DNA of 8,076 nucleotides from a bacterium (GTDB lineage Bacteria > B130-G9), in contig JAGHCW010000101.1 of assembly GCA_021160245.1 (NCBI GenBank), forward strand, positions 1 to 8,076. The letters are read 5' to 3'. Position 1 is the first letter of the stretch. Each line of letters starts with the position of its first letter. Under the pieces are notes generated by a model. That model searched no databases and had not been told where the DNA came from. It saw nothing but the letters and a program-made list of their open reading frames with translations. Position numbers and translations under genes: made by a program. Of the stretch, positions 3-8,076 are shown piece by piece.

Positions 3-737
3 TTGTCTCACGACGGCATCGAGTCGTTTCGCTGGTCGCTGATTCCTGTGGACGACGAGGTCGAGGAGGACGAGCGGGTCGCGTCCTTTCTAGATAAGTT
101 CAGGGTCATTGATGAGGAAGTGCTTGGCGTGATCGACGCTGACCTTGACCTCGCGAAGTCATCGATCCGCATGAGGCAATCGACGATCGGCACGCTGGTT
201 TGCGAGGCGATTGCCGAGGAGTTCCCGACAGCGTCGATGGTAATGGTGAACTCAGGTGGCATTCGGGGCAATTTCCAGCCCGCCGGGCCGATAACATTGT
301 CCGAGGTTGACGCGATATTGCCATTTCACAACGAGATGGTGCTGTTGTGGCTCTCTGGGAAGGAACTGAAATCGGCGTTGGAGCGGTCCGTGGTGTCATT
401 GCCAAAGCCCGACAGCAGGTTCCTTCAGGTGCTTGGGCTTCAGGTTGAGGTTGACCTATCACAGCCCGCAATGGAGCCGGGACGAGGCGAGGCCGAGCAG
501 CCCGGCCAGAGGGTCGGTCGGGTTCTTGTGCGAGGCGCGCCTCTTCAGATGAACAGAGAATATCTCGTCGCCACGATGGACTACTTGGCAAGGGGCGGGG
601 ATGGCTATATTGAGCTGGCAAGGGGCAGGCGACATGTAAAGACCGGGAAGGTTTTGAATAACATCTTTGCAGATTATATTAGACGACACTCCCCAATTCG
701 ACCTAGACGGGAGAGTTCCTACATTATCTCAGAATAA
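3..737 (+). CDS. 5'-nucleotidase/2',3'-cyclic phosphodiesterase family protein, C-terminal part (5' end cut by window)
   Basis: This is the C-terminal substrate-binding domain of the 5'-nucleotidase/UshA family, whose members remove phosphate from nucleotides, usually in the periplasm or at the cell surface. Family landmarks are seen in the right order: an IGTLVCEAI helix (residues 62-70, usually IGNL..DA), NSGGIR (83-88), LPFHNEMVLLWLSGKEL (106-122), a FLQVLG segment (140-145) and YLARGGDGY (194-202), the loop that carries substrate-ring contacts in this family. The frame is open to the left edge and the first codon only happens to be TTG, so the real start, any signal peptide and the metallophosphatase domain with its metal ligands lie outside the window. 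The domain itself looks complete and ends in a normal TAA. The purine permease begins 25 bases downstream, so co-transcription in a purine scavenging unit is likely. Domain assignment is firm; the exact substrate (nucleotide, cyclic nucleotide or UDP-sugar) is not known. Confidence 0.88.
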   Translation: MSHDGIESFRWSLIPVDDEVEEDERVASFLDKFRVIDEEVLGVIDADLDLAKSSIRMRQSTIGTLVCEAIAEEFPTASMVMVNSGGIRGNFQPAGPITLSEVDAILPFHNEMVLLWLSGKELKSALERSVVSLPKPDSRFLQVLGLQVEVDLSQPAMEPGRGEAEQPGQRVGRVLVRGAPLQMNREYLVATMDYLARGGDGYIELARGRRHVKTGKVLNNIFADYIRRHSPIRPRRESSYIISE

Positions 738-762
738 CTAGCGCTGATTTGGGAGGCGCCCA

Positions 763-2058
763 ATGCTGCAGAAGTATTTCAGACTCAAAGAGCACGGAAC
801 AACGGTCAAGACCGAGATTATGGCGGGCCTCGTCACGTTTATGACGATGGCCTACATCATCATGGTGAATCCTGCCCTGCTATCCAATGAACACGGAGCG
901 GGGATGGACTTTTCGGGCGTGATGGCGGCAACGTGCCTCGCCTCGTTCTTCGCGAGTCTGATGATGGGCCTCATTGCCAGATACCCGATAGCGCTCGGCC
1001 CCGGGATGGGCCTCAACGCCTATTTCAGCTTCACAATCTGCGGCAAGATGGGAGTCCCGTGGCAGGTCGCGTTGGGCATCGTCTTCATATCTGGCCTCGT
1101 CTTCACTGTCCTGACGCTCGTTAAGGTGCGCAAGATGATTGTGGATGCTATACCGCAGGGGCTGAAGCTGGCCACGGCCGCGGGTATTGGGCTTTTTATC
1201 GCCTTCATCGGATTGCAGCACGCGGGGATTGTGCTGAAGGACGATGCGACCCTTGTTAAGCTGGGCGACTTGTCCCATACCTCGACGCTGGTCTCTCTGT
1301 TTGGACTGGGCCTCACCGCCGTTCTCATCGCCAGGAAGATACGAGGCGCGATCCTGTGGGGCCTGCTTTCTACTGGTGTTTTGGCGATCTTGACGGGGAT
1401 AACCGAGTTCAAGGGTGTCTTTGGTCTTCCGAATTTCGGCACGGTGATGTTCAAACTCGACATTTTCAAGGCCTTTAGCTTTGAGTACATCACGCCAATC
1501 ATAGTTCTTTTGTTCTTTGATATGTTCGACACGATTGGGACACTAGTTGGAGTATCGCAGCAGAGCGGCCTCATGAAGAACGGCAAGCTGCCCATGATCA
1601 ACCGCGCGCTTTTGAGCGATTCGGTCGGCACGATGGCCGGGGCCGTCGCCGGGACATCGACGGTCACGAGCTACATAGAGAGCGCCGCCGGCGTTGCTGA
1701 GGGCGGAAGAACCGGACTTACTTCTGTAACCACAGGTTTGCTCTTCTTGGTGGCCATGTTCTTCACGCCGCTTGCCCAGGCGTTTGCGATGGGGTCGGTT
1801 ACGGCGCCCGCGCTTATCATTGTCGGCTGCCTGATGATGACGAATCTTCCCAAAATAAAGTGGGATGATTTGACCGAGGCCATTCCGGCCTTTCTGACGG
1901 TTATCCTGATGCCGCTGACGTTCAGCATCGCGCATGGTCTGGCAATCGGGTTCATCAGCTATCCAATTATCAAGCTCGTTGCGGGTCGTTCAGATGAGGT
2001 CCACTGGCTGGTCTATTTGCTGGCCGGCGTCTTTTTGCTCAGGTACGTTTTTCTGTAG
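763..2058 (+). CDS. NCS2 family purine permease (AzgA/GhxP/PbuG-like)
   Basis: This is an inner-membrane nucleobase transporter of 431 residues, the usual length for the AzgA-like branch of NCS2, which imports adenine, guanine or hypoxanthine, generally with protons. The N-terminus (VKTEIMAGLVTFMTMAYIIMVNP, about 15-37) is typical of this branch. GPGMGLNAYF (79-88) is the conserved third-helix motif. FFDMFDTIGTLVG (251-263) is the eighth-helix motif with acidic residues D253 and D256, and GTSTVTSYIESAAGVAEGGR (297-316) carries the conserved Glu306 of helix ten. Hydrophobic segments run almost throughout, as expected for about 14 membrane spans. The ATG is preceded by GGGAGG at 751-756 with a 6-base spacer. 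It follows a 5'-nucleotidase gene by 25 bases, which fits release of nucleosides or bases outside the membrane and uptake here. No nucleoside phosphorylase is visible. The stop lies 50 bases from the end of the convergent gene. Family is very sure; which purine is carried is inference. Confidence 0.95.
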   Translation: MLQKYFRLKEHGTTVKTEIMAGLVTFMTMAYIIMVNPALLSNEHGAGMDFSGVMAATCLASFFASLMMGLIARYPIALGPGMGLNAYFSFTICGKMGVPWQVALGIVFISGLVFTVLTLVKVRKMIVDAIPQGLKLATAAGIGLFIAFIGLQHAGIVLKDDATLVKLGDLSHTSTLVSLFGLGLTAVLIARKIRGAILWGLLSTGVLAILTGITEFKGVFGLPNFGTVMFKLDIFKAFSFEYITPIIVLLFFDMFDTIGTLVGVSQQSGLMKNGKLPMINRALLSDSVGTMAGAVAGTSTVTSYIESAAGVAEGGRTGLTSVTTGLLFLVAMFFTPLAQAFAMGSVTAPALIIVGCLMMTNLPKIKWDDLTEAIPAFLTVILMPLTFSIAHGLAIGFISYPIIKLVAGRSDEVHWLVYLLAGVFLLRYVFL

Positions 2059-2108: not shown

Positions 2109-4085
2109 CTACTTCTTACGGCTACATTCCTTCCATCGCTCATATCCTTGGTGGAAGCGAGACTCATCCGGGTGGAGCTCGATCGCTCTCAGGTAGGCCT
2201 CCTCAACCTCCGATCGCGGCCTTTTGAGTTTGGACAGAGCTTCACCCAAGTGGTACCAACACCAAGCCTGGCGAATCGGGTCCTCAGACAACTGGATTGC
2301 GCGCCGAAATAGCTCAATTGCCTCTCCCCAAAGTTGTTTTCTAGCAGACGATGCCATCCCAGTATCCCTGGCCATTCCTATCTTCGTCTGAGCGAATTCG
2401 TGAACGAACTTCGCATCATTCTTCTTTGTTTCGTAGCTTTCCCTGAAGAGATGATGCGCCTCCTTCAACTCGCCGACGCGCCTCAGGATGATGGCTGCCT
2501 CAACCTTGTCCTCATAAACCGCAAACTGGGGCATCAGCCGCTTGATTTGGCGGGCCTGCTTCTCCTGTCCACGTTCAAGGAGAGTGCTAATCATTCTAAG
2601 GTACGGAAGAGTCTCATGGTACTTCACAGGCTGCGTGCGAAACATTTCGAGAACCTGCTCCGCCCTCTTGAGCTCGTCCATCTTGCCCAGATACTCAATG
2701 AGTTGAGCCGCCAAAGCGCCAGATTGAGGCTGCTCCTTCAAAGCCCTCTCAAGATGGGCTATGGCGTCGGCCTGTTCACCAACTGCCCAGAGATATGCGC
2801 TTTGCCGAATCGCGTTGATAACGCTGTAACCGGGATGAGCGGGCAGAGTAACCGTGAAATAGGTCCTACCCTCATCGAACTCAAATAGCGGCTCCGGGGA
2901 ACCATTCTCCCGCATCTTGCGCCTGATTTTGGCGATGCCTGTGTAGCGCATCTCGGCGAGGCGCAGTTCTTTGAGGAACTCGCCTATCCGCCTATTCCTG
3001 GATGGCACTTGAGGGAAGCTCGCGTCAGGTTGGAAGTGGCTCTTCTCAATGCCCTGAACAGGCCCCGGGTAGCTTGTTATCTTAAGGCACGAGGGATACA
3101 GAAATACCTTTGTTGGTTCAACAGAATGCTCGTAGCTCCTATGATAGGCGGCATTCACAATCGCCTCCTCCATTGCCTCATAAGGAAACGCTACTGTTCT
3201 TTCAACTTCTGCATGGCCGGGCACTTTCCTAATCAGGACATCTACTAATGATTGCAGATGTTGTATGGTCATTTTGACCTGATCCTGAATGGGCCCTCTT
3301 ATCACCTTCTCCTCGATGAGATTACCGCCAGCATCATCAGAGAAATGGGCAATCTCTACCCTCGCGCCTCGGAAGAATCTATCCGGATCGTCGCTGAAGA
3401 AAAGCAGACCGATATTCCTGGGGACTTCATGACTATTCACTCGAACCGTGATCTTGAGTTTTCGATAGAGCTCCTCGTCGGGAATAGGCTGAGGGAATGA
3501 GACAAGGTCACTCCTGACATCCGCAAGAAATCGGCGAACTTGAGTCGGGGATAGGTCAGTAATACGCGACTCGAGCGACCTGCGATCGTCAAAGGGCATT
3601 TTTGCCGCCTGCTCCAAGAGCTGCCGAAGCAGGTCTTCCTTTGCTTCGACGGTCTGGGAACCTTGCCTGATGTGATAGGCGCGGGTTTTCTCGTCCCCTC
3701 TTACTGGCGCCTGATATGGCCTGTTATCGCCTCCGGGCGCCCATATAACCAGAATCCACTTGTTCTGATAGACCTCAGGGAATAGCATCGGCACGTATTC
3801 AGGGCTAATCTTTCCTCTGCACTCACCGGTCAACGCACGCTGTATCTTGTCCAAGTCGAGGTCGTCGAGGCCCCTTGGCGGCAGGATCGGCTTGCCCCCC
3901 TCCTCTTCGATCCCCAGAATAATGTATCCCCCATTCATATTAAGAAGGTCATTGGCGAACGCGCAGATGGTTCTAATAACGTCCCTCTTGATCCACTCGT
4001 CCCAAGTAGCTTTGAAATCAACCCGATTGCCCTCAATGGAGCGGAGGTTGATCAAATCATCAAGATTGAACGGCAGCCCTGGCAT
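2109..4085 (-). CDS. Schlafen AlbA_2 domain / RecG-like GHKL ATPase-region protein with C-terminal TPR repeats
   Basis: This 658-residue cytoplasmic protein has three parts. Residues about 8-150 are an AlbA_2 (Schlafen-type) domain: an acidic pair and Lys in IEGNRVDFK (17-25), AFANDLLNMNGGYIILGIEE (42-61) and WAPGGDNRPYQAP (115-127). Residues about 200-420 match the region often annotated as RecG-like/HATPase_c_4, with an N-box-like EEAIVNAAYHRSYE (306-319), SYPGPV (338-343), SRNRRIGEFLKELRLAE (362-378) and FDEGRTYFTVTLPAHP (403-418). Residues about 425-655 are TPR-like helix pairs, for example GEQADAIAHLERALKEQP (436-453) and WGEAIELFRRAIQLS (586-600). Homologues with the first two parts are usually called ATP-binding or putative transcriptional regulators; the roughly 240-residue TPR tail is an addition to them. 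The start at 4085 is chosen because AGGGAG lies 8 bases upstream and because an ATG 19 codons earlier (4142) overlaps the -10 box. Function is unproven: regulation, nucleic acid binding or defence are all possible. Confidence 0.85.
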   Translation of the reverse strand: MPGLPFNLDDLINLRSIEGNRVDFKATWDEWIKRDVIRTICAFANDLLNMNGGYIILGIEEEGGKPILPPRGLDDLDLDKIQRALTGECRGKISPEYVPMLFPEVYQNKWILVIWAPGGDNRPYQAPVRGDEKTRAYHIRQGSQTVEAKEDLLRQLLEQAAKMPFDDRRSLESRITDLSPTQVRRFLADVRSDLVSFPQPIPDEELYRKLKITVRVNSHEVPRNIGLLFFSDDPDRFFRGARVEIAHFSDDAGGNLIEEKVIRGPIQDQVKMTIQHLQSLVDVLIRKVPGHAEVERTVAFPYEAMEEAIVNAAYHRSYEHSVEPTKVFLYPSCLKITSYPGPVQGIEKSHFQPDASFPQVPSRNRRIGEFLKELRLAEMRYTGIAKIRRKMRENGSPEPLFEFDEGRTYFTVTLPAHPGYSVINAIRQSAYLWAVGEQADAIAHLERALKEQPQSGALAAQLIEYLGKMDELKRAEQVLEMFRTQPVKYHETLPYLRMISTLLERGQEKQARQIKRLMPQFAVYEDKVEAAIILRRVGELKEAHHLFRESYETKKNDAKFVHEFAQTKIGMARDTGMASSARKQLWGEAIELFRRAIQLSEDPIRQAWCWYHLGEALSKLKRPRSEVEEAYLRAIELHPDESRFHQGYERWKECSRKK

Positions 4086-4093
4086 ATATGACA

Positions 4094-4099
4094 CTCCCT
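4094..4099 (-). promoter_or_regulatory. Shine-Dalgarno sequence that sets the AlbA_2-TPR gene start
   Basis: On the minus strand AGGGAG is followed by 8 bases and then ATG at 4085. The longer alternative start at 4142 has no such sequence and lies inside the predicted promoter, so this site decides the start. Confidence 0.75.
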
Positions 4100-4101
4100 G
4101 T

Positions 4102-4119
4102 TGCGCAAATAGCAGCGCA
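4102..4119 (-). other. small stem-loop in the predicted 5' leader of the AlbA_2-TPR gene
   Basis: The minus-strand leader contains TGCGC and GCGCA arms (4115-4119 and 4102-4106) around an 8-base loop, ending 2 bases before the Shine-Dalgarno sequence at 4094-4099. The leader would be about 50 nucleotides if transcription starts near 4134. A five-pair GC-rich stem so close to the ribosome site could tune translation, but a stem this short can also arise by chance. Confidence 0.3.
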
Positions 4120-4140
4120 CATCTTCTAGTCTCGGCAAAC

Positions 4141-4169
4141 ACGATATTCCGTCAGGCTGGGGTTGTCAA
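4141..4169 (-). promoter_or_regulatory. sigma70-like promoter of the AlbA_2-TPR gene
   Basis: Read on the minus strand, a perfect -35 box TTGACA (4164-4169) is followed by a 17-base spacer and a -10 box TATCGT (4141-4146, four of six consensus bases). Transcription would begin near 4134, giving a leader of about 50 nucleotides before the ATG at 4085. A perfect -35 at ideal spacing in front of the gene is good evidence, though it rests on pattern only. Confidence 0.65.
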
Positions 4170-4409: not shown

Positions 4410-5894
4410 GTGAAGGTTACGCTTATCTCGCCATATCTTGATACTATTGCACAGGGGCTCCGCTGTTTGTCGTCATTTATCAAGTCGAAGGGCTATGAGT
4501 GCGAGATGATCTTCCTTCCCGACTTCGACGCGCTGCTCAGCTACCGGCCTCAATTTGAGAAGCTTTACAGCGAACAACTGATTGAGGATGTTGTCGAGAA
4601 GTCCTCTTCGTCGGACTTAGTCGGCATCTGTGTGATGAGTAATTTCCTTGACAAGGCCACCCAGCTTAGTTCCGCTCTGAGAGCGAAAGTGAGGGCGCCG
4701 GTAATCTGGGGAGGCATACATCCGACCGTGCTTCCGGAGAGCTCGCTCGATTATTGCGACATCGTCTGCGTGGGCGAGGGTGAGTATCCGCTGCTAAACC
4801 TGATGCGCGCAATCGAGCAGAAGAAGGACTATAGGAACATTAGAGGCCTTTGGTTCAAGGACGGTTCCGACTACATAAGGAATCCGATTGAGCCGCTCGC
4901 CCGCGACCTCGACTCGCTACCATTTCAGGACTACGACTACTCAACCCATTTCGCTGTCTCGAAGGACCGTAATCACCTCGTGAAGGTGGATTACGAGCTG
5001 CAGAAGGAGCACATCATAAGGGGGCTTAGGATTTGCGGCGACCGCTGCGTATATCAGACGATCACGACCCGCGGCTGCCCTCATGCCTGTGCCTATTGCT
5101 GCCATTCCGCGCTCAAAAAACTATACGAGGGCCAGCCCGTGCTGAGGCGCCGGAGCGTTGACAACGTGATGCAGGAGCTTGAGGAGATCAAAGAGGCGAT
5201 GCCTTACGTGGAGCTCATCCTCTTTGCGGACGAATCGATGCCCGCGATGCCGGACGCCAAGATGAAGGAGTTTTGCGAGCAGTACAAGAAGAGAATCGGC
5301 CTGCCAATGTACGTTCAGGTCTCGCCGCCCCTTATGACCGAGAAGAAGATGGACTACCTCGCCGACGCCGGGATGATAAGCGCGCAGATGGGCATCCAAA
5401 CGGGCAGCGAGAGGATAAATCGCGAATACTACAATCGCTTCATCACCAACGACCAGGTGCTTGAGGGCGCCAGGCTGCTCAACAAGCATAAGGACACAAT
5501 GGTCCCACCCGTCTATGACGTGATACTCGACAATCCATACGAATCGCGAGAGGACAGATTGCAGACCGTCAGACTCCTGATGCAGCTGCCTCGTCCATTT
5601 GTCATCCAGTTCTTTTCGCTAACCTTCTATCCTGGAACGCCTCTCTACGATAGAGCGAAGGCGGATGGCATCGTCGGAGATGAGCGAGAGACGGTTTACA
5701 GGAAGCACTATCATGCGTTTGAGAAGACATTTCTGAACTTCCTCGTGCTGGGCGTTCACTTCGGGCTACCGAAGCCGCTTATGAGATTCCTCTCAAACGG
5801 TCTTGTGGCAAGAGTACTCGACGCTGGGCCGATTCGCCCGCTCTGGCGACTTGTCCATAGAGCTTTGAAGATTCTAAAGAGCCTGATTCGCTAA
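4410..5894 (+). CDS. B12-binding domain-containing radical SAM protein
   Basis: This is a 494-residue cobalamin-type radical SAM enzyme (class B/BchE-like layout). Residues 1-140 form a B12-binding Rossmann-like domain: MKVTLISPY start, GGIHPTVLPES (101-111) and VGEGE (121-125). The DxHxxG motif that supplies the lower cobalt ligand in methionine synthase is not seen, as in many radical SAM relatives. The radical SAM core follows, with the 4Fe-4S motif RGCPHACAYC: Cys223, Cys227 and Cys230 (CxxxCxxC). FADES (272-276) and MGIQTGSERI (327-336) are later strands of the barrel, and FYPGTPLYDRA (406-416) is typical of the family. The basic, hydrophobic tail (443-494) has no clear assignment. The start is GTG, with a GGGGAG stretch ending 4 bases upstream; tandem TAA codons end the gene. 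Such enzymes methylate unactivated carbons or perform ring rearrangements. The substrate is unknown; the neighbouring nucleotide-sugar-type gene suggests a glycan or specialised-metabolite pathway, by inference only. Confidence 0.9.
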   Translation: MKVTLISPYLDTIAQGLRCLSSFIKSKGYECEMIFLPDFDALLSYRPQFEKLYSEQLIEDVVEKSSSSDLVGICVMSNFLDKATQLSSALRAKVRAPVIWGGIHPTVLPESSLDYCDIVCVGEGEYPLLNLMRAIEQKKDYRNIRGLWFKDGSDYIRNPIEPLARDLDSLPFQDYDYSTHFAVSKDRNHLVKVDYELQKEHIIRGLRICGDRCVYQTITTRGCPHACAYCCHSALKKLYEGQPVLRRRSVDNVMQELEEIKEAMPYVELILFADESMPAMPDAKMKEFCEQYKKRIGLPMYVQVSPPLMTEKKMDYLADAGMISAQMGIQTGSERINREYYNRFITNDQVLEGARLLNKHKDTMVPPVYDVILDNPYESREDRLQTVRLLMQLPRPFVIQFFSLTFYPGTPLYDRAKADGIVGDERETVYRKHYHAFEKTFLNFLVLGVHFGLPKPLMRFLSNGLVARVLDAGPIRPLWRLVHRALKILKSLIR

Positions 5895-6023: not shown

Positions 6024-6029
6024 AGGAGG
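6024..6029 (+). promoter_or_regulatory. strong Shine-Dalgarno sequence before a TTG start
   Basis: AGGAGG, a near-perfect anti-16S match, ends 7 bases before TTG at 6037. The first residues after it (HGKTILVTGGAGYLG) are exactly where an SDR protein should begin, so this site fixes TTG as the start. Confidence 0.85.
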
Positions 6030-6036
6030 GAATAAT

Positions 6037-8076
6037 TTGCACGGGAAAACCATACTTGTAACAGGCGGCGCGGGCTATCTTGGCTGTCATCTCTGTCCAC
6101 AGCTCGTGGAGCAGGGAGCAAAGGTTCGTGTCTTTGATCGGCTATATTTTGGCAAAGAGGGGCTCCAGAGCGTTGTTAAGCCAGAGAATATGGAGCTGGT
6201 TGAGGGCGATATGCGAGCGATTGAGAAGTTCCCGTGGTTGCTCGATGGCATCTATGGCGTCGTCCACCTCGCAGGTCTCGCCAACGATCCCTCATGCGAT
6301 CTCTCGCCAACAATGGCGGAGGAGATAAACCACATCGCATCGCTTAAGCTCGCGGAAATGGCCAAGGCTCGCGGAGTTCCCAGATTCGTTTTCGCCTCGT
6401 CTTGCAGCGTTTACGGCGCGTCCGGGGAGAAACTCGTTAGCGAGGTCTCTCCTCTCTCGCCGGTATCGCTCTATGCGAAGCTCAAGATAAAGTCCGAGCG
6501 AGCGCTCTTTGATATGGCGGACGAGAATTTCATCGTGACGGCGCTGCGCCAATCCACCCTATTTGGCTATTCTCCTCGAATGCGTTTCGATCTGGCCATA
6601 AACCTGATGACGTTGAGCGCAGCCGCCAAGCACAAGATAATCGTCCTAGGTGGTGGCGGCCAATGGCGTCCATTCCTTCACGTCAAAGACGCTGCCCGCG
6701 CGATCGTAGCCGTCCTTCGCGCAGAGAAGCAGAAGATCGCCTCGCAGATACTTAATGTCGGCGCAAATAGAGACAACTACACGATATGCGATCTGGCGAA
6801 GATAGTTGAGGCCAATGTGCCAGACACCGCCACCGAGGTAGCGCCGGACGATGCGGATAGAAGGTCCTATCGCGTTCGCTTCGACAAGATAGCCACTCGC
6901 TTGGGCTATGACACGACCATGACGCCTGCGGATGGAGCAAAAGAGATATATCAAGCGATCAAGGATGGCCGAATTGCTGAGCCCTATAGCGACTGGCATT
7001 TCAACGTCCTGCGACTGAAGCATCTTGTGAGCATTCCAGTAGCCGATGGCGGAGAGACCTCAAGGTCCTCCATGCTTCCTTACTCGCTTCCCACTATCAC
7101 TGGCGCAGACCGGATGCGAGTGGCGGATAGTCTGAAGGCCGCCGCAGAGGGTAGCCTAGAGGGGCCGCTTAGGAATCTTGAGAGCGCGCTTCTCGAGCGA
7201 TTTGATAGGTCTGCCGCGATGCTCTTGCACTCACGTCACTTGGTCCTTCGCGCTGCGCTTCGTAGCTCGGGTCACTCCGGACCACACATAATGATTATGC
7301 ACCCGTTCTCGGACGCGAAGCTCTTCGCAGCCGCGCAGCAACTGGGATTCACACCCGTTCTGTGCGATCTAGAGGAGCGAAGCCTGAGATTCGATCTTGA
7401 GCGGCTCAATGCGCTCTTGAAGAAAGGCGCCTCGGCAATCATCGCCGGGTCGAGGCTTGACATGCCTGAAAACCTCAAGGCAATGGAATCGATCGCGGGC
7501 GAAGAGGGCTGCTCGCTCATCGTGGACGCCCAAGACCTAATGGGCGCATTGGTTAACGGCCGTCATATAGCGACTTACGGAGACTGTGCCGTCCTCGACT
7601 TTGGGCCCGACCAGAACGTGACGGCGCTTGGCGGTGGGGCGGTTCTTTTTAGGGAACTATCCGCGGAAGAAGAAGTGATGCGAGGACAATCCAAAAACAA
7701 GACCAGTGGCGTCATCTCTCTCGATGAGAAACAGATGAGGCTCTCCCCGATCTCGGCCATGTTGGGGATCTCAAGCCTCGGCCGGCTTGACGAGGCGAGC
7801 GATTTGCTCCGCAACCTCCAAGCCGCTTATGACGAACTTCTGAGCGACACACCCCATGTGCGTGTTCTGCGCGCAAGCGATGAGTCGCAGCGGTCCGGCA
7901 GCAAGTATCCGGTCCTGGTTGATTTTGATGCTCTGACGGTCGATGCCGAGGGGATGGAGAAGCGCATGAGGGATGAGAGAATCGAGTGCCATCGAGCGAG
8001 GCACTGCGCAATTCATCTCGCAACGATGCGGCATTATGTCCTGGATTATTTGCGGCGCATAGCCGAGACGGGGAAG
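6037..8076 (+). CDS. NAD-dependent epimerase/dehydratase fused to a degenerate DegT/StrS-type aminotransferase domain (3' end cut by window)
   Basis: I read one uninterrupted frame of 680 codons from the TTG at 6037 to the right edge, with no stop. Residues 1-320 are an extended SDR: NAD-binding TGGAGYLG (9-16), Asp34 at the end of the second strand (favours NAD over NADP), HLAGLAND (77-84), FASSCSVYG with Ser122 (119-127), catalytic Tyr146 and Lys150 (YAKLK), and RPFLHVKD (211-218). Such enzymes epimerise, dehydrate or reduce nucleotide sugars in the cytoplasm. After a linker, residues about 347-680 follow the DegT/DnrJ/EryC1/StrS fold: LPYSLPTITG (347-356), GSLEGPLRNLESALLERF (372-389), IVDAQDLMGA (495-504) with Asp497 kept, and FGPDQNVTALGGGAVLF (522-538). 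The position of the PLP Lys is Gln526, and the SGT phosphate-binding motif reads SRH (399-401), so transamination is unlikely. Roughly the last few dozen residues of the fold lie outside the window. The pairing suggests sugar modification; the exact substrate is unknown. Confidence 0.87.
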   Translation, partial: MHGKTILVTGGAGYLGCHLCPQLVEQGAKVRVFDRLYFGKEGLQSVVKPENMELVEGDMRAIEKFPWLLDGIYGVVHLAGLANDPSCDLSPTMAEEINHIASLKLAEMAKARGVPRFVFASSCSVYGASGEKLVSEVSPLSPVSLYAKLKIKSERALFDMADENFIVTALRQSTLFGYSPRMRFDLAINLMTLSAAAKHKIIVLGGGGQWRPFLHVKDAARAIVAVLRAEKQKIASQILNVGANRDNYTICDLAKIVEANVPDTATEVAPDDADRRSYRVRFDKIATRLGYDTTMTPADGAKEIYQAIKDGRIAEPYSDWHFNVLRLKHLVSIPVADGGETSRSSMLPYSLPTITGADRMRVADSLKAAAEGSLEGPLRNLESALLERFDRSAAMLLHSRHLVLRAALRSSGHSGPHIMIMHPFSDAKLFAAAQQLGFTPVLCDLEERSLRFDLERLNALLKKGASAIIAGSRLDMPENLKAMESIAGEEGCSLIVDAQDLMGALVNGRHIATYGDCAVLDFGPDQNVTALGGGAVLFRELSAEEEVMRGQSKNKTSGVISLDEKQMRLSPISAMLGISSLGRLDEASDLLRNLQAAYDELLSDTPHVRVLRASDESQRSGSKYPVLVDFDALTVDAEGMEKRMRDERIECHRARHCAIHLATMRHYVLDYLRRIAETGK

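Follow-up and report, generated by a model that had tools for sequence, protein, structure and literature searches.

A conserved SDR-DegT fusion protein of Coatesbacteria with a putative pseudo-aminotransferase half

Conserved pseudoenzymes are known among the PLP-enzyme families. LCB1/SPTLC1 of serine palmitoyltransferase is a homologue of PLP enzymes that lacks the PLP lysine, is retained as a non-catalytic partner and works together with LCB2 (PMC3794620). Among enzymes with the DegT fold, the ColD and E1 (RfbH) 3-dehydratases have replaced the Schiff-base lysine with a catalytic histidine and depend on PMP (PMC8987622). In the open literature that we searched, outside of which many journals lie, there is no description of a conserved pseudoenzyme in the DegT sugar-aminotransferase family and no report of a lysine-less fusion of an SDR domain to a DegT domain. 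The protein described here would combine both features.

The fusion gene lies on the plus strand at 6037..8076 of the window, by which we mean the entire stretch of 8,076 nucleotides that was analyzed. It starts with a TTG codon (6037-6039) preceded by AGGAGG at 6024-6029, and its frame stays open for 680 codons up to the end of the contig at 8076, where the copy is left incomplete with its 3' part missing; complete relatives, such as the orthologue on QMNL01000174.1, are 720 aa long, and a TTG codon is found at the identical start position in all four copies from Coatesbacteria. Residues 1-334 (6037..7038, plus strand) constitute an extended SDR domain of the NAD-dependent epimerase/dehydratase type (Pfam: Epimerase, 1e-43), which is joined through the junction PVADGGE (7036..7056, plus strand) to a C-terminal half with the DegT/DnrJ/EryC1/StrS fold (residues 335-680, 7039..8076, plus strand; Pfam: PF01041, 3e-25). 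With a score of 89.6 bits (cut-off, 19.8), this second half belongs to the superfamily by homology, and a complete relative recovers 105 bits over positions 9-359. The SDR half retains TGGAGYLG, SSCSVYG and Y146-x-x-x-K150 (Y146AKLK150), and thereby both the Rossmann TGxxGxxG and the YxxxK signatures. Given that SSCSVYG occurs in it without the Asp-Glu pair of the 4,6-dehydratases, its motifs suggest that an epimerase-like reaction is the more likely one, and we infer that it is a working nucleotide-sugar enzyme.

Searches with the SDR half recovered a 723-aa fusion from another phylum in which the aminotransferase half is intact (SCTAALH, FSFYAIKNITTMEGG). Of the 68 species examined from that phylum (around G142), about 50 carry a near full-length fusion, and lysine occupies the position equivalent to 526 in all 30 of the fusions read from it; together with a single representative from a third phylum (L121, in G416), which has a matching junction, the lysine is present in 31 of 31 copies read. 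These lysine-bearing fusions (L064/L090 and 29 others read) resemble the Coatesbacteria protein in domain order, length (719-736 aa) and junction, and their SDR halves are about 45% identical to its own; 55 of the 61 SDR positions invariant in 30 of them are retained in all four Coatesbacteria copies. Unlike the Coatesbacteria protein, all those read possess the S-x-T motif, an aromatic residue at 426, S521 and K526, and on these residues they should be working aminotransferases. An SDR gene and a gene for a lysine-bearing DegT also occur as unfused neighbors (L066, L067, L083, L122 and L127). A further lysine-bearing fusion, with a 768-aa frame and a similar junction, is encoded from position 2339 of L238 onward on a contig classed as viral (IMGVR_UViG_2868068591_000002), and one relative of the SDR half (L065:961-2565, 535-aa frame) is fused behind an apparent N-terminal membrane segment.

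To compare the PLP site we used a joint alignment of the four Coatesbacteria copies with 30 lysine-bearing fusions, 40 other cellular DegT proteins and 40 DegT proteins from virus contigs. The original prediction had placed Gln526 (CAG, 7612-7614, in D525-Q526 at 7609..7614, plus strand) at the PLP lysine, and the alignment bears this out: the column holds lysine in 110 of 110 comparison proteins and glutamine in 4 of 4 Coatesbacteria copies, a replacement that, in view of those 110 rows, is far beyond chance. HMMER likewise pairs Q526 with the lysine that forms the Schiff base in solved DegT structures, and in a smaller earlier panel lysine was found at this column in 40/40 comparison proteins. 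No other lysine takes its place, as a conserved substitute sought near 526 in the four copies was not found, the only lysine there being at 527 in G002. It had further been claimed that the SGT motif for the PLP phosphate reads SRH (S399-R400-H401; TCA CGT CAC, 7231..7239, plus strand). The threonine is indeed lost, position 401 being H/Y/Y/Y in the clade and T in 103/110 others, but S399 is kept, and the closest lysine-bearing relatives themselves read SCT where 'SGT' was expected.

Loss at these two sites was thus correctly recognized, but two is too few, as four further positions of the pocket are changed. Position 426 (7312..7314, plus strand), aromatic (F/W/Y) in 102/110 comparison proteins with a side chain that in this family stacks on PLP, is aspartate in all four copies; D475 (7459..7461, plus strand), also found in 4/4, replaces a glycine conserved in 110/110; D500 (7534..7536, plus strand; N in the three relatives) stands where a His or Gln over the ring is usual (97/110); and D521 (7597..7599, plus strand), again in 4/4, replaces the serine (104/110) to which the PLP phosphate binds in this family. 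Aspartate at 475 and at 521 is absent from all 110 comparison proteins. The joint alignment further shows changes at positions 563-566, close to the point where a subunit of the dimer reaches the PLP of the other. The pyridine-nitrogen aspartate D497 (GAC, 7525..7527, plus strand) remains, as had been proposed, and is present in 114/114 aligned proteins. In functional terms the half lacks the Schiff-base lysine and the PLP phosphate site while retaining the pyridine-nitrogen aspartate, and S399 and D497 are the only usual PLP contacts left in it. Read from its residues, the cup that once took the phosphate has turned acidic and as such should repel PLP.

The fusion with Gln526 is found in 4/4 Coatesbacteria genomes examined, which span three genera. 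The DegT half has its nearest relatives, at 46-49% identity, in the fusions of the other three Coatesbacteria genomes, and Q526 and D497 are shared by all four copies. The glutamine and the lost motif are therefore common to the close homologues as a clade, with no normal lysine among them, and a misread AAG at 7612-7614, which had been raised as a way in which the prediction might fail, is excluded by the same glutamine in four separately assembled genomes. Thus, Gln526 is neither an error nor an oddity of a single genome.

A structure prediction, also proposed at the outset, was obtained with AF2 for the complete DegT half of the G003 orthologue, using 43 aligned rows, and gave a model of the DegT fold (pLDDT 91.2, pTM 0.90). 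A fold search with this model recovered PseC (Z 42.4, 361 residues, 3.0 Å) and matched GDP-perosamine synthase, ArnB and E1 across the whole domain (Z 41 for E1 and 38 for ColD). Since 40 of the 43 rows are canonical DegT proteins that pull the fold towards the family, the model shows that the sequence is compatible with a DegT fold and says little on the pocket. A three-sequence AF2 run for the whole fusion reached a pLDDT of 37, and nothing was drawn from that model. The half is accordingly modeled, at the level of fold, as keeping the whole DegT domain; it shares this predicted fold, D497 and the GG that follows the Schiff-base loop with PseC, ArnB and DesI, and differs from them in being without the lysine, the S-x-T motif, the phosphate serine and the stacking aromatic residue.

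The origin of the loss can be read from the junction and from the SDR half. By alignment, the junction has the same spacing as that of the lysine-bearing fusions; the pattern NVxxxKxLxxxPVxEGGE is common to the Coatesbacteria copies and L090, and that of L121 is spaced identically but differs a little in its letters. In the SDR tree the Coatesbacteria copies group with L121 (98/85) within the fusion group (94/82), with the unfused SDRs outside. Because they nest among lysine-bearing fusions in this tree, the loss of the lysine is the derived state. The DegT half is too divergent, with a branch of 3.2 changes per site, to be placed by its own tree: p-AU is 0.48 with the lysine-bearing fusions held together versus 0.37 with an LGGG-type DegT paralogue. 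This paralogue (L003:1396-2643, G000:C94) is a lysine-bearing Coatesbacteria DegT in which, as in the dead half, the Schiff-base loop is followed by 'LGGG'; none of this type was among the matches in G002. An independent fusion of this paralogue was set aside, since both the spacing at the junction and the SDR tree link the protein with the lysine-bearing fusions.

The two halves have diverged very differently. Among the lysine-bearing fusions the mean identity is 58.9% for the SDR half and 66.1% for the DegT half, whereas between these and the Coatesbacteria copies it is 45.5% and 20.3%, respectively; of 92 DegT positions invariant in the lysine-bearing set, the Coatesbacteria copies retain 18, and at 46 all four of them differ. 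This inversion, along with the counts of invariant positions, indicates that catalytic constraint was lifted from the DegT half while the SDR half kept its own. The DegT half is nonetheless under purifying selection and is not decaying: its frame is open in all four genomes, and between G001 and G003 its dN/dS is 0.126 (bootstrap 0.079-0.191), compared with 0.081 (bootstrap 0.050-0.119) for the SDR half. Over residues 361-600, which include the old pocket, the ratio is 0.05-0.09, with residues 601-660 being looser (0.37). Purifying selection of this kind supports a working pseudoenzyme and argues against decay.

Given that nearly all the parts for PLP are lost from a half that is still protected, this half probably has a non-catalytic job for its partner. 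We therefore propose, with a probability of roughly 0.7, that the protein is an SDR-DegT fusion with a conserved pseudo-aminotransferase half that would act as a non-catalytic dimerizing or ligand-binding module, a reading in line with the pseudoenzyme originally suggested and with the clade-wide Gln526, the further losses in the pocket and the selection on the half. The ancestor would have been a protein of two activities, joining an epimerase-like SDR to a PLP-dependent sugar aminotransferase; in Coatesbacteria the lysine and most PLP contacts of the latter half would have disappeared before the divergence of the three genera, and purifying selection would have maintained this half thereafter. 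Such a half should form no Schiff base, and we infer from its residues that it does not bind PLP. The loss of the lysine alone would not prove this, because engineered K-to-A mutants of DegT proteins have been crystallized with PLP (4oca, titled ArnB K188A complexed with PLP and UDP-Ara4N), and D497 and S399, which remain in the pocket, count against our reading. The DegT half probably dimerizes like its relatives, which would keep the SDR halves together in a fixed oligomeric frame, and a nucleotide sugar or some other ligand may occupy its old substrate cleft; the sugar-binding or dimerizing module originally suggested is thus a plausible role. As the live ancestral type and the dead descendant are both available and can be compared residue by residue, this sugar enzyme of two domains allows a direct test of the step from a catalytic to a non-catalytic domain. 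In practice, the lysine should be checked before a PF01041 match in such a genome is annotated as an aminotransferase.

The dead half could alternatively pair with a separate lysine-bearing DegT protein, as LCB1 does with LCB2, and so tether one live site to the SDR domain. By analogy this is conceivable, though rather unlikely. The active sites of DegT enzymes are located where the two subunits of the dimer meet, and a stand-alone lysine-bearing DegT, whose identity to the DegT half of the active fusions is 42-46%, is indeed encoded in 4/4 Coatesbacteria genomes. Its gene adjoins purD, and the three contigs that extend far enough have the order purH-purD-degT-recO. LCB1/SPTLC1, however, belongs to a different family, is a subunit of its own with no SDR domain attached and has a known heterodimer partner; in Coatesbacteria the fusion and the stand-alone gene have no genomic linkage, and the changes at 563-566 fall near the very contact that would be offered to the partner's PLP. 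The stand-alone gene is at L149:9535-10725 (G000:C130) and in the same place in G001-G003.

A changed chemistry, in which the invariant acidic residues D426, D475, D497, D521 and D525, together with Q526, would form a new ligand, cation or catalytic site, is an unlikely reading. It draws on the low dN/dS around the pocket, on the aspartates at 475 and 521 that none of the comparison proteins has, and on the invariance of 7 of 10 pocket positions across the four copies as against 38% of the whole half. This enrichment is weak (P about 0.04, for ten hand-picked positions in four related sequences), and aspartates can also stabilize an empty cleft. That the PLP cleft has been rebuilt into a conserved acidic binding or catalytic site, giving the SDR a cofactor-free partner domain across the whole candidate phylum, is a tentative possibility.

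A PMP-dependent 3-dehydratase of the ColD/E1 type with Gln in place of His is very improbable. Both enzymes likewise have the DegT fold with the lysine replaced, and both match the model well, but they combine His with PMP where the dead half has Gln, in all four copies, with a lost site; without the His that serves as general base, and with the contacts to phosphate and ring on which a PMP enzyme depends gone (T401, F/W426, H/Q500 and S521), such an enzyme is not expected. The contrast with ColD that had been drawn earlier is in fact stronger than claimed, six positions of the cofactor pocket being changed and not one. Decay of the half into a pseudogene, or an error in sequencing or assembly, which the very fast divergence from the lysine-bearing relatives (20% identity) might bring to mind, can be rejected, as both are refuted by the open frame and the same glutamine in four separately assembled genomes, a dN/dS of about 0.13 and the constraint on the pocket.

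The gene neighborhood of the fusion, when examined, pointed to no clear pathway. About 140 bases upstream of it in the window, at 4410-5894 on the plus strand, is a gene for a B12-binding radical SAM protein, a relative of which (33% identical) is encoded in G001 about 8 kb upstream of the fusion, behind a WbqC-like gene. The minus strand at 2109-4142 codes for a protein with a Schlafen/AlbA_2 domain, a HATPase_c_4-like region and TPR repeats. The first part of the window (3-2058, plus strand) holds the end of an apparent 5'-nucleotidase ORF, recognized by eye, followed by a gene for a xanthine/uracil-type permease.
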